Shown one piece after another: positions 1,671-8,778 of a stretch of 13,594 nucleotides of DNA. Made by a program: the position numbers and the translations under genes. The DNA lies in the NCBI GenBank assembly GCA_938029995.1, contig CALHGI010000243.1, forward strand, positions 1 through 13,594, in the 5' to 3' direction. Each line of letters opens with the position of its first letter. Position 1 is the first letter of the stretch. This stretch comes from an uncultured cyanobacterium. GTDB taxonomy: Bacteria; Cyanobacteriota; Cyanobacteriia; Phormidesmidales; Phormidesmidaceae. Under the pieces are notes generated by a model. It saw nothing but the letters and a program-made list of their open reading frames with translations. It made no database searches and was not told where the DNA came from.

Positions 1671-2624
1671 TTAGGCCGCAACACCCATTTTGCCAGTCGT
1701 TCCCATGGCCATCAGCATGTGATAGGTAATCAACAACTGAGTTAGGGCTAAGGGATAGCTTTGCAGCGTTTCACCCGTGGTGCCGACAATCTTGCCGACT
1801 TCCTGGTTGCCCTCTAGGCTACAGAACTGGCCCAGGTAAGGCACGTCACTACAAAGGATGCGCTCGAGCTGCTGCACTTGGTCGGGGGTGGCATGGCCAT
1901 CAATGGCCAATACGTCCACGGGCTTACCCATATCGCGCTCTAGGCCGAGGCGGATAGCTTTACCCAAATCGGTATCTAGGATATCTGTAAAGTCAGGGTG
2001 GGGAATTGTGGGACGCAGCACCAGATTGACGTTCAGCAACAAATCGTTGGCGGCTTCTTCGGCAGCGGTGGGGGGATAGAACGTAACCACCACATCAGCC
2101 CACTTTCTCTGGGGACGGATGAAGGCTTCAGAGTCGGGTTCGCGGGCCGCTAAGGCTGCTAATACGTCGGCTTCACCGTAGCCACGCTTGCGGGTATCAC
2201 GCTTGATTTTCCACTTGGTGCGTAGTTCCTCGGGGGGGGCGAGGTAAACCTTCACGTCATAGGCGTCGCGGGCTATTTTACTGGAGTAGCCCAATAGGCC
2301 TTCTACGATGACGAATTTCTTGGGTTCGATGTACTCAGGGGCATCAAAACAACCGGTGGTGTGGTTGTAGATGGGCTTTAGAATGGGTTTCCCCTGACGT
2401 AGCAGACCCAGATGCTGCTCAATAATGTCAACGTAATTACAATCGGGATGTAGGGCGGAAATCCCCATTTCCTTACGCTGTTGACGATCGTAGCGGTGAT
2501 AGTCATCGGTACAGATGGTCGTAACATCATGCTCACCGAGTACCTGGGCGATTCCGCGGGTGAGGGTGGTTTTGCCTGCGGCACTGTCTCCAACAATACC
2601 AAGGATGATCGGACGGTCTGCCAT
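1671..2624 (-). CDS. Phosphoribulokinase/uridine kinase-family protein, PRK-like paralogue
   Basis: This is a P-loop kinase of the phosphoribulokinase family, 317 residues from the ATG at 2624. The Walker A loop is GDSAAGKTT (residues 12-20). It is followed by the family signatures TDDYHRYDR, KPIYNH (83-88), the Walker B-like strand VIVEGLL (105-111) and RDTRKRGY (142-149). The start is set by an AGGAG eight bases upstream; an upstream TTG at 2663 is in frame but has no such support. Canonical cyanobacterial PRK, as I remember it, has a cysteine in the P-loop (GDSGCGKST) that forms the redox-regulatory disulphide with a second cysteine. Here the P-loop cysteine is Ala and only the second one (C38, TICTDDYH) remains. 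I therefore read it as the second, divergent PRK-like protein found in cyanobacteria. It may phosphorylate ribulose-5-phosphate or a related substrate; the sequence does not settle this. Database pipelines probably name it phosphoribulokinase. Confidence 0.8.
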   Translation of the reverse strand: MADRPIILGIVGDSAAGKTTLTRGIAQVLGEHDVTTICTDDYHRYDRQQRKEMGISALHPDCNYVDIIEQHLGLLRQGKPILKPIYNHTTGCFDAPEYIEPKKFVIVEGLLGYSSKIARDAYDVKVYLAPPEELRTKWKIKRDTRKRGYGEADVLAALAAREPDSEAFIRPQRKWADVVVTFYPPTAAEEAANDLLLNVNLVLRPTIPHPDFTDILDTDLGKAIRLGLERDMGKPVDVLAIDGHATPDQVQQLERILCSDVPYLGQFCSLEGNQEVGKIVGTTGETLQSYPLALTQLLITYHMLMAMGTTGKMGVAA

Positions 2625-3065
2625 GGACGTATCTCCTGCTTCTTTAGATTTTCTTAAACTCAATTGTTAGTCCCATTTTAGGCACCAACGGTACTAGGCT
2701 CAAGAATCTGTGTCAGGGAATACGTCTCGCCAAACAAATCGCTGATTGAGTAAAAATACTCATAACCCCCAGGCGCAAAGCGTTACACTTTCATCGGCAG
2801 ATGAAAAAAATATTAGAAAAATTTAGGTTTCATGACTTAATAAATTTGCCTGGATACGGTTGTTTTGTCCTTAGTGAAGGACGTTTTTGCTAAGGAGCGG
2901 TGTCCAAGGGGCGCGATGCTTAGCCCATGAATGTGCTATTAACCGGCTGTTACGGATCTATCGCCAGTCGGTTACCCACATGACCCGTAGCCGATTGAGA
3001 TCGCAAATCTATCGCTAGTCAGTTACCCATATCACTTTCAGTCGATTGAGATCGCAAATCTATCG
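2625..3065. other. 441-base intergenic region, leader side of the PRK-like gene
   Basis: No gene is visible. On the left are small hairpins: TGAGTA/TACTCA around a 4-base loop (2747-2762), TTTCATC/GATGAAA around a 4-base loop (2789-2806) and GTCCTT/AAGGAC around a 4-base loop (2867-2882). On the right the 51-bp tandem repeat begins at 2956. The promoter of the PRK-like gene must lie here or further upstream, but I could not pick convincing -35 and -10 boxes. Confidence 0.6.
2633..2637 (-). promoter_or_regulatory. Ribosome binding site deciding the PRK-like start
   Basis: AGGAG on the minus strand lies 8 bases before the ATG at 2624. It selects this ATG over the in-frame upstream TTG at 2663. 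Confidence 0.75.
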
Positions 3066-3108
3066 CTAGTCGGTTACCCATATCACTTTCAGCCGATTGC
3101 GACCGCGT
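2956..3108 (-). repeat. Three 51-bp tandem copies of the 3' end of the LapA/GGDEF-like gene
   Basis: The units are 2956-3006, 3007-3057 and 3058-3108. The third contains the real last codons and stop of the gene at 3066. The period is exactly 17 codons. On the minus strand each unit reads as AAT-CGx-CTx ... TGG-GTA-ACx-GAC, then TAG-CGA-TAG (TGG-CGA-TAG in the outermost unit), so each could encode NRLKVIWVTD or NRLRVMWVTD followed by a stop. Only the unit nearest the gene is translated. The first 5 codons of the unit are less alike between the gene copy and the other two. Confidence 0.9.
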
Positions 3109-3920
3109 TTAATGGCCAGGGCCAGGGCTTCTTCGGCTTTGCCCATCAATAGTTGTTCGCTCTCTGTGGGGTGCTCCGCATCTGTAACGGCTCCACCAAT
3201 ATGAACATCGAGGGCGGTTTGGGTGCCATCTGGCAGGGAGAGGGGGGCCTCTGTTAGGGCGGTTTTTAGGGTTTCGGCGTACTGGGTGATGGCTTTAAGG
3301 TCTAGGCCGGTGAGGCTACAGGTAAAGGTGCCTTGGTTATCGCTAAAGAGCCAAGAGTCTATGGTCAAGTTGTGCTGTAGTGCTTGGGAAATGGCTGACC
3401 ATAGGGCCTGGTCTTTTTTTAAATTCCCGGGTTCGGGTTGTCGTCGCTCGGGTTTAATGACCAGTAACCCGACGGATTGGAATTCTTCGTTGAGGGGTTG
3501 CATTTTCATCTGCTGAAGCAGGGCCCTCGTGGTGCGGGGAACGACGGCATCATTGACTAGGCCTGTGGTGTGGTCTAGCAGGTCTAGGGATTGCAACAGG
3601 TTTTGGTAGCTGTGGCGCAGGGTGCTGGCTTTGCGTGTTTGACTGTTGACTTCTTGTTGTTTGGCGAGGAGCTGGTCCTCTAGGCTGCTGGCTTGTCGTT
3701 TGGTGCGGGAAATACGCCACTCCCGTTTGAGAAATGTGGGAATGGTGACGAGGAGACCAAAGATCACGCCGAGACCGGTGGTGAGCAATAGCACGGTGGC
3801 CAGGTGTTGGCGCTCCAGCTGCCAGATAAAGAAGTTGATGGTGATTAGCTGATCGTTTTGCAGGGCAAATGCGATCGCAAAAAACGCAACCACCAAAGCA
3901 AAGATAAGAAATAGTGCCAT
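3066..3920 (-). CDS. LapA-domain membrane protein with a degenerate GGDEF-like C-terminus
   Basis: The protein has 284 residues from the ATG at 3920 (an in-frame TTG at 3938 would add six). Residues 1-65 match the LapA/DUF1049 layout: a first membrane helix, the FALQNDQLITINFF strand motif, then a second membrane helix (about 40-62). A charged coiled coil follows (about 70-105). Residues 110-280 resemble a diguanylate cyclase domain at its edges: LDHTTGL near 115 for the usual D-x-LTGL, and a typical end, KAEEALALAIKRGRNRL. The GGDEF loop itself is not there; the equivalent stretch reads LFSDNQGTFTCSL. The domain therefore cannot be expected to make cyclic di-GMP and may be structural or ligand-binding. 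No strong ribosome binding site is seen. The 3' end is tandemly duplicated downstream. Confidence 0.75.
   Translation of the reverse strand: MALFLIFALVVAFFAIAFALQNDQLITINFFIWQLERQHLATVLLLTTGLGVIFGLLVTIPTFLKREWRISRTKRQASSLEDQLLAKQQEVNSQTRKASTLRHSYQNLLQSLDLLDHTTGLVNDAVVPRTTRALLQQMKMQPLNEEFQSVGLLVIKPERRQPEPGNLKKDQALWSAISQALQHNLTIDSWLFSDNQGTFTCSLTGLDLKAITQYAETLKTALTEAPLSLPDGTQTALDVHIGGAVTDAEHPTESEQLLMGKAEEALALAIKRGRNRLKVIWVTD
3871..3878. repeat. HIP1 octamer (one of five in the window)
   Basis: GCGATCGC, the highly iterated palindrome of many cyanobacterial genomes, occurs at 3871-3878, 5515-5522, 6354-6361, 8475-8482 and 9552-9559. All five lie inside coding sequence. By chance an 8-mer would be expected about 0.2 times in a window of this length. 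Confidence 0.9.
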
Positions 3921-3987
3921 CGATAAAATAGCCAGCAAACAGCAGTTAACCCAAGCCTAGTGAAACTGACCTTTAGCCCTTATCCAT

Positions 3988-4572: not shown

Positions 4573-6699
4573 CTATAGCTTGAGCATCACCTCAGGCAAT
4601 AGCTCCGCTGGGATCTGGTTGAGGGCCTGCTGTTGGCCCTCTAGGCCCAACAGTTCATAGTGCATGGAAACATTACGCACCAAGGCCTTGAAAATAGGGG
4701 CATGGGTGGCTGCGGTCTTAGGGGTGGTTTTAAGGGCGGCGACATAATGGACCAATGCCCGCTCCAATTGGCCAGGGGCTGTTTGGTCATTGTCCGACCG
4801 GGCTAGCTTGTCGTAGATGCTACCCAGGCAGTGGCGAATGGACGCCAGGTCAATCATGGTGCTTGATGGGGCCAGCTCCGATGCTTTGAGGGCGGCTTCG
4901 TAGGCAATCACTGCGTTTTGTTTGTATCGCCCCTCCGGGTCTGCCGGGGCCTCTGGATGGTTGGCCAGTTCCCAAAAGGCTGTGCCCAAGTTGTTATAGG
5001 TGCTGGCGCAGGCGGACGGGTCGGTGGTGGGGGTGCGGTAATGCAGGGCATCGCGATAGGCGGCAATGGCATGTTTGAGTAAAAATATGGGCCGCTCGTA
5101 GCGGGACAGGCTCCAATAGGCGATGCCCAGATTATTTTGCACGGCGGCATAGTCCAGCGGTGACTGATCGGGGTGGTGGCAGCCTAGGGCTTCGTTATAG
5201 GCGGCAATGGCCCGGTGCAGATAGGTTTTGGGCTCTTCGTAGTAGGCCAGTTTCCAATAGACCGAACCCAGGCTGTTTTGCAGGGTGCCGTACTCATCGG
5301 AGTGGGTTTCCATGGGCGAGAACGGTAGGGCCTGGCGATAAACGGCCACCGCCTGCTTGAGATGGGTGACTGAGTCATCGTAATTGGCTAGGGCGCTGTA
5401 GACGGCTCCTAGGTTGCCGTACAAACGGCTATGGGTTTCTGCATCCACCATGGGGCAGTCAAGCCCGGCTTGATAGAGTGCCGCACTGCGGTTCATGCCC
5501 GCAATGAGGGCCTTGCGATCGCGTTGGTGTTGGGCCTGGAGCCAGTGTAGGGTGCCCAGGTCGTTCAGGCCTGCCGCCCGCTGGCTATCGTCCTTCGGTA
5601 GCCAGTGCAGATAAAGTTCAAAGGTCTCAATGGCGGTGGCCAGTAGGTTTGGGCGGATGTCCCCGGCTTCGATGAGATCGCGGTAGTGGTTGCCCAAGGT
5701 GCGATAGGCCTGGATTAGTTGCTCCGGCGTTGCTCCCTCGGCTTGCCGCTGGGCGATGACGTCTAACGGGTTGGCCACTGTGGTAATCGCGTCAGTGGTA
5801 ATCGTGTCAGTGGTAATCGTGTCAGCGGTGATCGTGTCAGCGGTGATATCAACCGATGGTGTGGGGCCGCTGGGAGGCTGTTCAGCGGGAGACTGCTGGG
5901 CAGGGGGCTGTTGCGTGGGGGGCGGCTCAGGGGCCGACTGACCCACCTGAGTTTCGGTTGCCGCGGCAGCTGCGTTGGCCTGGGTTGCGTTGGCCTGGGT
6001 TGCGTTGGCCTGGGTTGTTAGCGGCCTCGCAGCCGGGTGCTTAGCTGCTTCATTTGGCTGTTCAAGCTGGGCGAGGTCTTCGCTGAGAATTTGCCAAATA
6101 TCGGCGTTCTGTTGCGTCTGCCGAGCATTGCCCTGGCCGTATAGGCCATCTAGTTGGGGCGTGGCTGGGGGGCTAGATACTCCAGCCACGGGCTCGCTGA
6201 CAAAGGTAAAGACGCCGCTACGCCACTGCCAAAAACCGGGGGCAGACTTTTGTATGGTTCGGTACCAGGGCCATGGGAGCCATAGCACTAAGCTGCTTTC
6301 GAGGTGGGGCAACAGGGCCTGGATATTCTCAAGGGAGCGCAAGAAATGATTTTGCGATCGCATCGACTGATGGGTCATGGCGTCCATGCCCACCACTTGA
6401 ACATTGGGGGTGGGGGTAGGAGTCTGCTTAATCCAATGGGCCAGCTGCACCACCAGATCGGGCTGGGTGGGGTCAAAGGTTAGGGTTGCCAGATCGACCG
6501 CCCCAAAATCATCAATACTTTCCGCCGTGGCCACATCCGACTGTAGTCTGTTGACCAACTGGGCCTGCAGACTGTCGCTATCACAGACGGCAATCAAAAG
6601 CTGTCGTCTGAGGTTGAGCTGTAGGGAGGTCTTGAGGCCTTCGTACTGGCGTTGATTGAGCCCCAGAACCTTACGAGACCTGAGTTGTGTAGCCACCAT
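4573..6699 (-). CDS. Large TPR protein with an N-terminal STAND/AAA-like remnant and a repetitive linker
   Basis: The protein has 708 residues from the ATG at 6699. The frame is open to an ATG at 6813, but those 38 residues look non-conserved and neither start has a good ribosome binding site. Residues 15-165 form a globular domain (NLRRQLLIAVCD, later LVLWLPWPWY and WQWRSGVFTF). The last two segments resemble the end of NTPase-like domains found ahead of TPRs in cyanobacteria and other bacteria. No Walker A motif is visible, so ATP binding is doubtful. Residues 225-310 are a Thr/Gln/Ala/Pro-rich linker with pentapeptide repeats. Residues 330-690 hold helical repeats, the clearest four starting near 429, 476, 523 and 570 with a 47-residue period (NLGAVYSALANY, SLGSVYWKLAYY, NNLGIAYWSLSRY, NNLGTAFWELA). 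The likely role is a cytoplasmic protein-binding scaffold; the partner is unknown. Confidence 0.85.
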   Translation of the reverse strand: MVATQLRSRKVLGLNQRQYEGLKTSLQLNLRRQLLIAVCDSDSLQAQLVNRLQSDVATAESIDDFGAVDLATLTFDPTQPDLVVQLAHWIKQTPTPTPNVQVVGMDAMTHQSMRSQNHFLRSLENIQALLPHLESSLVLWLPWPWYRTIQKSAPGFWQWRSGVFTFVSEPVAGVSSPPATPQLDGLYGQGNARQTQQNADIWQILSEDLAQLEQPNEAAKHPAARPLTTQANATQANATQANAAAAATETQVGQSAPEPPPTQQPPAQQSPAEQPPSGPTPSVDITADTITADTITTDTITTDAITTVANPLDVIAQRQAEGATPEQLIQAYRTLGNHYRDLIEAGDIRPNLLATAIETFELYLHWLPKDDSQRAAGLNDLGTLHWLQAQHQRDRKALIAGMNRSAALYQAGLDCPMVDAETHSRLYGNLGAVYSALANYDDSVTHLKQAVAVYRQALPFSPMETHSDEYGTLQNSLGSVYWKLAYYEEPKTYLHRAIAAYNEALGCHHPDQSPLDYAAVQNNLGIAYWSLSRYERPIFLLKHAIAAYRDALHYRTPTTDPSACASTYNNLGTAFWELANHPEAPADPEGRYKQNAVIAYEAALKASELAPSSTMIDLASIRHCLGSIYDKLARSDNDQTAPGQLERALVHYVAALKTTPKTAATHAPIFKALVRNVSMHYELLGLEGQQQALNQIPAELLPEVMLKL
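5780..5854. repeat. 15-bp minisatellite, five units, encoding DTITT/DTITA repeats
   Basis: Units start at 5780, 5795, 5810, 5825 and 5840, with consensus GTGGTAATCGTGTCA on the plus strand. On the minus strand they encode the pentapeptides VDITA, DTITA, DTITT, DTITT and DAITT (residues 283-307 of the TPR protein). The two rightmost units have diverged. The period is five codons, so unit gain or loss keeps the frame. Confidence 0.9.
5971..6015. repeat. 15-bp minisatellite, three perfect units, encoding TQANA repeats
   Basis: TGCGTTGGCCTGGGT is repeated exactly at 5971, 5986 and 6001. On the minus strand it encodes TQANA three times (residues 229-243 of the TPR protein). The perfect identity suggests recent expansion. 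It is unrelated in sequence to the other 15-bp array 116 bases away. Confidence 0.95.
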
Positions 6700-7154
6700 A
6701 GCGTAGAAAAAGTGTGGGTAAGTTCGAAGCGGGACAATTGCCGGAGAAGGGCAGACATGGGCGGGGCCTAGGCAAGGGTCGGAAATAGGCACTGGGGCTA
6801 ACCCTTGGGACATTGTCCTAGGACCGTTAGAATGCTAGGCCCATGCCGTGCCTTCCCAGGCAAAACTGTTAATTACCCATCTTTTCCTTAAAAAATAGAC
6901 AGGATCAGGAATCCAGATGACGAATTGGAACATACTTGGTCGATCCTGCCCGAGTCCTAGGCGCTGCTGTAAACTTGAGATGTGACATTAGCAATGCTGA
7001 TTCCATCCACGGGTTGAATCTTGAAGCAATGGGCTGGCAGCCATCGTTACGGATAGATTTAAGTCCTAAATCAGTAAATGCTATTCTGCCCCCCTGTGAC
7101 GGTACCGTTTGGTGCAGTCTAAATCCATTCAATAGGTGAAGTGAACGCTCATCC
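6700..7154. other. 455-base divergent spacer between the TPR gene and pcyA
   Basis: If the TPR gene starts at 6699, this spacer carries promoters for both directions. If it starts at 6813, the spacer shrinks to 341 bases. Short open frames on both strands (6905-7180 minus, 6936-7139 plus) have no ribosome binding site or protein-like composition. I see only a small hairpin, GATTTA/TAAATC around 5 bases, at 7056-7072. No clear -35/-10 pair could be chosen. Confidence 0.5.
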
Positions 7155-8646: not shown

Positions 8647-8778
8647 CAAGTCTTCGGCGGCGATGGGGGCCCCCTTGGAGATGAGCTGACTTAATTTTCC
8701 GGGGGCGATGGGGGGACCCCGGCGATGACTTGACTTAATTTTCCGGCGGTGAGGGGGGGACCCCGGCCATCACCACTA
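8647..8778 (-). repeat. 44-bp tandem copies of the 3' end of ftsI
   Basis: Unit 8735-8778 contains the real last codons and stop of ftsI. Unit 8691-8734 repeats it directly downstream of the stop, with 27 of the first 30 bases identical. A third, degraded unit lies at 8647-8690. On the minus strand the copy reads ATC-GCC-GGG-GTC-CCC-CCA-TCG-CCC-CCG-GAA-AAT-TAA, the same AGVPPSPPEN-stop as the gene with three synonymous changes and one Met/Ile change. The G/C blocks could also form hairpins between the convergent gmk and ftsI genes. Confidence 0.85.

Follow-up and report, generated by a model that had tools for sequence, protein, structure and literature searches.

The last codons and the stop of a gene whose product has a LapA domain and a weak GGDEF-like region are repeated in three 51-bp units set head to tail at positions 2956-3108 of the window (the window being the whole stretch of DNA analysed, contig C243, 13,594 bases). 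Only the innermost unit is translated, and the middle one is a mosaic of its two neighbours. The array is missing at the same site in all seven same-genus orthologues for which DNA was available, where the alignment keeps the downstream gene prk. It probably originated in a tandem duplication across the stop, after which the outer copy would have drifted, the translated copy would have changed, and a later slippage of 51 bp would have given the present three units. On the whole, the array has the look of ordinary repeat formation rather than of a special mechanism at work.

Structure and setting of the array

The gene lies on the minus strand at 3066-3938, with its TAG stop at 3066-3068. In Pfam, its product matches LapA_dom with an E-value of 3.2e-16, and the GGDEF match reaches 20.3 bits, which is under the cut-off of 23.8. 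The gene next downstream is prk, which encodes phosphoribulokinase (1671-2624, minus strand; Pfam PRK, E 2.7e-38); its ATG start at 2624 was chosen by eye, the list of open reading frames extending it further, to a TTG at 2663. In the spacer between the array and prk (2664-2955, minus strand), no additional unit was found. A fourth, decayed unit had been considered in this spacer and was rejected, as 509, 457, and 749 of 1000 shuffles equalled the best local alignments. The order of LapA/GGDEF-like gene, spacer, and prk is common to all seven congeners, where the array has no counterpart and where TRF detects no tandem repeat at the gene ends.

The region upstream of prk also bears a 16-base dyad, TGAGTA-N4-TACTCA (2747-2762), which was found in all eight loci of the genus that were examined. 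In 1,288,722 bases of other stretches the dyad occurs three times, each time at a prk locus (G003, G005, and G007), and it is possibly an operator.

The genome to which the contig belongs is fragmented (733 contigs, 70.3% complete), and the named relatives among its protein matches include Leptothoe, Leptolyngbya, and Adonisia, which places it among the cyanobacteria, near Leptothoe. The own-species protein cluster of the array gene has a single member, the next best match among 63 genomes of the family being 80% identical.

TRF scores the array at 197. The unit spacing is 51 and 51 bases, and adjacent copies stand in one register. The inner unit (3058-3108, minus strand) comprises the last codons of the gene, the stop, and 8 post-stop bases, and it is translated up to the stop. 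The middle unit (3007-3057, minus strand) is untranslated and is built from parts of both neighbours: its first 10 bases are those of the outer unit, and the other 41 are those of the inner unit save for two private transitions. The outer unit (2956-3006, minus strand), likewise untranslated, has the gene end in the form RLRVMWVTD, with TGG in the place of the stop. Reading on in frame from the gene through the array gives ...NRLKVIWVTD, a stop, R, a stop, ICDLNRLKVIWVTD, a stop, R, a stop, ICDLNRLRVMWVTDWR, and a last stop. An 18-base core, searched with at most three mismatches, has two matches in the window (the inner and middle units) against 0.01 expected, and the repeat itself is beyond chance. 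The first-pass annotation of the window had already described three 51-bp units repeating the last codons and the stop, and both these units and every codon difference that it listed are indeed found in the sequence. A dispersed repeat element was also considered and set aside: at E ≤ 0.001 only the array's own site is matched, and the next matches in its own genome have E-values of 0.27 and above.

Divergence of the units and a seemingly older end of the gene

From the listed differences, the same annotation concluded that the untranslated copies had diverged in a coding-like manner, a view that does not stand when the unit is taken as a whole. The codons immediately ahead of the ten that it compared had been omitted. 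They read CGC GGT CGC (Arg-Gly-Arg) in the inner unit and TGC GAT CTC (Cys-Asp-Leu) in the middle and outer ones, the three amino acid changes (CGC/TGC, GGT/GAT, and CGC/CTC) being common to both untranslated units; the genes of all seven orthologues have CGN-GGN-CGN at these positions. Over 14 codons, the inner and outer units differ by two silent, two conservative, and three radical changes and by one change of the stop, and the ratio of silent to other codon changes is 2/3 for the inner and middle units, 2/6 for the inner and outer, and 4/3 for the middle and outer.

Third positions account for five of the 11 differing sites between the whole inner and outer units (P 0.29), for three of six between the inner and middle (P 0.32), and for four of seven between the inner and outer when only the ten codons and the stop are compared (P 0.17). 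The strongest of the four comparisons is that between the whole middle and outer units (six of nine; P 0.042), with none of the P values corrected for the number of comparisons made. In simulations, at least four third-position changes were obtained in 0.44 of the runs under free drift and in 0.80 of those where the translated copy alone was constrained, and the chance of the exact counts was 0.0143 and 0.0134, respectively. The weights used (0.1 for radical and 0.4 for conservative changes) and the starting tail were the authors' choice, and 3720, 4113, and 2173 of 30,000 runs each were kept for the models. Where both copies were constrained, three or more radical changes appeared in 0.22 of the runs; since this model cannot make the stop change by construction, its zero there says little. 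Under these models, the divergence is matched equally well by free drift and by constraint on only the translated copy; the pattern does not separate the two, nor does it require hidden translation.

The coding-like reading presupposed that copies made by slippage, once untranslated, should lose their protein sense. However, the translated copy changes as well, and its changes are filtered by selection. Furthermore, the outer copy, which was supposed to have kept the protein sense, has in fact lost it, both in the Cys-Asp-Leu codons and in the replacement of the stop by Trp. Because selection filters the changes of the one copy and the other has lost its sense, recombination between alleles is not needed to account for the pattern.

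Related proteins provide a means of judging which form of the gene end is older. The closest protein found, P0002 from Leptothoe sp. PORK10 BA2, is 88% identical to the product of the array gene and is its sister, with support of 100/99, in a tree of 40 related proteins (40 of 43, with the last 20 residues cut; P0041-P0043 were omitted, one being short and two distant). P0002 ends in RLRVMWVTD followed by KLQTH; the outer unit also reads RLRVMWVTD, and the translated copy reads RLKVIWVTD. The Arg and Met of the outer unit are, moreover, the commonest residues at these sites among the related proteins listed. Since the sister protein agrees with the outer unit here, the simplest view is that Lys and Ile are derived in the translated copy, and the outer copy seems, from this comparison, to hold the older end of the gene. 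Some caution is due at the Lys/Arg site: Lys stands there in seven of the 40 rows of the tree, for which about six changes are needed, so this residue comes and goes, and a chance return is conceivable. The outer copy itself has Asp for Gly, Leu for Arg, and TGG for TAG, changes that belong to a sequence no longer read. The five residues of P0002 beyond the usual VTD end (KLQTH) indicate that its stop, too, has moved.

The first-pass annotation also anticipated an orthologue ending in VTDWR with the codons CTA-CGG-GTC-ATG. None of the seven orthologues with DNA ends in VTDWR, and the one nearest to the outer unit in its codons, that of G001, has CTA-CGC-GTC-ATG and then VTD and a stop. Of the two explanations offered there, the persistence of older ends outside the stop agrees with the RLRVMWVTD shared by the outer unit and P0002; the other, in which the units are tails of divergent alleles, could be true but is not needed.

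Formation of the array and competing explanations

The history considered probable begins with a tandem duplication of about 51 bp, which would have arisen across the stop of the LapA/GGDEF-like gene and would have been harmless to it because the first copy still supplied its final codons and its stop. The outer copy, no longer translated, would then have drifted, acquiring Asp for Gly, Leu for Arg, Trp for the stop, and other changes, and the translated copy would have undergone Arg to Lys, Met to Ile, and silent changes under ordinary coding selection. Later, a single slippage would have duplicated a 51-bp register composed of the inner unit's right part and the outer unit's left end, which would yield the mosaic middle unit. 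The order of the three units is derivable from a two-unit array by one internal 51-base duplication, and either slippage or unequal exchange within such an array would give it. We infer a mechanism of this kind, along with the order of events, and we take the array to have no function of its own.

Several observations count against this history. Of the seven positions in the right-hand 41 bases at which the inner and outer units differ, six fall within 12 bases (P 0.017, for a window of 12 bases whose length was picked after the data had been seen). Between the inner and outer units seven of 33 bases differ, as many as separate the inner unit from gene ends in other species (seven to 11); a distance of between-species size means that either the array is old or its tails are of different origin. 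Finally, two residue changes in ten are rather more than the short P0001 branch would suggest (0.044 changes per column).

The clustering and the distance both favour an alternative in which incoming DNA from a relative was recombined near the 3′ end, but out of register, one unit then being the gene end of the donor and another that of the recipient, or in which the inner unit had its right part overwritten by a short conversion tract. The resemblances to particular congeners point the same way, the outer unit being nearest to the gene end of G001 (28 of 33 bases; 90% over 30 bases), with the inner unit closest to that of G007 (26 of 33; 83% over 42), but counts of 28 and 26 out of 33 bases are not enough for naming a donor. 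In a comparison with the orthologue DNA of seven congeners, a donor-specific flank was not apparent between the units, which are too short for placing a breakpoint. The first codons of the outer unit (Cys-Asp-Leu) match no orthologue, Arg-Gly-Arg being present in every one of them, and the VTDWR ending is likewise foreign to all seven. A search of the window for a template of the 12-base tract returned the inner and middle units only. Given that simple duplication makes a donor unnecessary, an allelic origin of the tails is rather unlikely, although not negligible.

It is improbable that the array is an artefact in which the tails of strains co-occurring in a metagenome bin were joined head to tail during assembly. 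Assemblers are known to struggle with short repeats, a difficulty that one of the literature titles listed also names, and this genome, presumed to be a bin, is as fragmented as bins are. However, the units keep exactly to a register of 51 bp and share a left end of 10 bases that is present in none of the seven orthologues, which argues against such an origin, as strain bubbles would have no reason to produce a junction of this kind.

Still less probable is a functional array, that is, a regulatory or terminator element between its gene and prk, or a supply of spare in-frame stops. The units are in frame with repeated stops, and prk follows on the same strand, two points in its favour. Against this, the RNA fold is no better than that of shuffled sequences (46 of 200 were as good; z -0.74), the sole terminator-like site within 2600-3300 lies outside the array, none of the seven congeners has the array, and one of the stops is lost in the outer copy. 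Rfam gives no match in the window. A diversity-generating retroelement, with a variable repeat at the gene end and a template repeat beside it, would suit a variable copy at the 3′ end with more copies downstream, but it is contradicted by the substitution pattern and hardly deserves credence: such elements change template adenines only, whereas A makes up two of six changed bases with the middle unit as the template and two of 11 with the outer one, and Pfam reveals no reverse transcriptase among the 11 window proteins scanned of the 23 open reading frames listed.

Arrays at other gene ends and comparison with known repeats

A second array of the window consists of three copies of 44 bp (8655-8774) across the stop (8735-8737) of the gene for penicillin-binding protein 2 (PBP2), between this gene and the convergent guanylate kinase gene; TRF gives 2.7 copies with 81% matches and 1% indels. 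The PBP2 protein cluster has two members, both on one contig. Like the LapA/GGDEF-like array, it has three copies across a stop and is absent from the gene ends of all seven congeners, where TRF detects no repeat; unlike it, the unit is not a multiple of three, and the outermost copy is more decayed. Another case was found in the same genome at the end of an EVE-domain gene (L052, contig C6 of G000), where a 55-bp tandem copy extends past the stop (3264-3373). It resembles the LapA/GGDEF-like array in being a tandem copy across the stop that is absent from the gene ends of all six congeners compared, but it has two copies only, and similar post-stop bases were noticed by eye in four of those six.

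When the translated end is compared with its neighbouring copy, the PBP2 array shows three silent changes and no other over 11 codons (four and one if the two codons before are added), the EVE array shows three and none over 13 codons, and the LapA/GGDEF-like array shows two and three. The silent excess in the first two, small as the numbers of changes are, is consistent with selection acting only on the translated copy, and it might be what caught the eye of the earlier reader. Two more repeats across stops were recorded elsewhere: a 17-bp repeat of 2.1 copies at the end of a 381-aa open frame (L055, 1129-1163, contig C9 of G000) and 123-bp tandem repeats at the end of a STAND-NTPase/WD40 gene (L112, 8792-9226, G005), the latter probably being repeats of the WD40 part.

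A genome-wide preference of arrays for stops was considered and abandoned. In early samples, four of 13 arrays crossed a stop, both in 20 further contigs (period of at least 15) and in 40 (period of at least 17; 0.63 expected), the two of the window being included in each case, and the excess faded with 60 more contigs. Over 100 further contigs (491,722 bases, the window apart), with arrays of period under 17 dropped and open reading frames of at least 100 aa counted, two of 36 arrays lie across stops against 1.39 expected, and one of 36 lies across a start against 1.22 expected. Gene tails recur within 200 bases at one of 309 ends, compared with five of 927 interior points and none of 240 starts. 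From the array counts and the recurrence of tails, no preference for gene ends is seen. In stretches of the congeners, stop-spanning arrays number 0 of 14 (G003), 1 of 15 (G005), and 0 of 5 (G007). In the window alone, both of two arrays cross stops against 0.14 expected, and two of its 12 gene ends carry arrays compared with two of 893 in other stretches; this excess, which weighs against an ordinary history of the array, is unexplained except by the selection of the window. Two 15-base tandem arrays (5780-5844 and 5971-6017) were also observed in the window, inside a gene for a TPR protein (4573-6813).

These cases call for caution in reading such arrays. When a gene end and its post-stop copies are alike in protein sense, this is no sign of separate translation, present or past, since all copies are the same at the outset and selection then screens the changes of the translated one. 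A gene's protein is left whole by a duplication across its stop, and the outer copy may hold older states of the gene end, thus offering a small way to polarise changes. It has also been entertained, as a tentative and rather doubtful idea, that stop-spanning duplications form small fossil records in which untranslated outer copies keep an earlier or displaced allele of the gene end; if true, arrays of this kind could serve, inside one genome, to date the replacement of alleles by homologous recombination. Among the literature matches listed, no title deals with gene ends duplicated past the stop, which describes those titles and not print as a whole.

The nearest known systems are short tandem duplications and minisatellites, which are formed by replication slippage or unequal exchange. 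The array shares with them the head-to-tail copies of equal length, the absence from relatives, and a mosaic such as a second slippage would give. It differs in happening to cross a stop codon, so that coding selection continues to act on one copy and the outer ones escape it.
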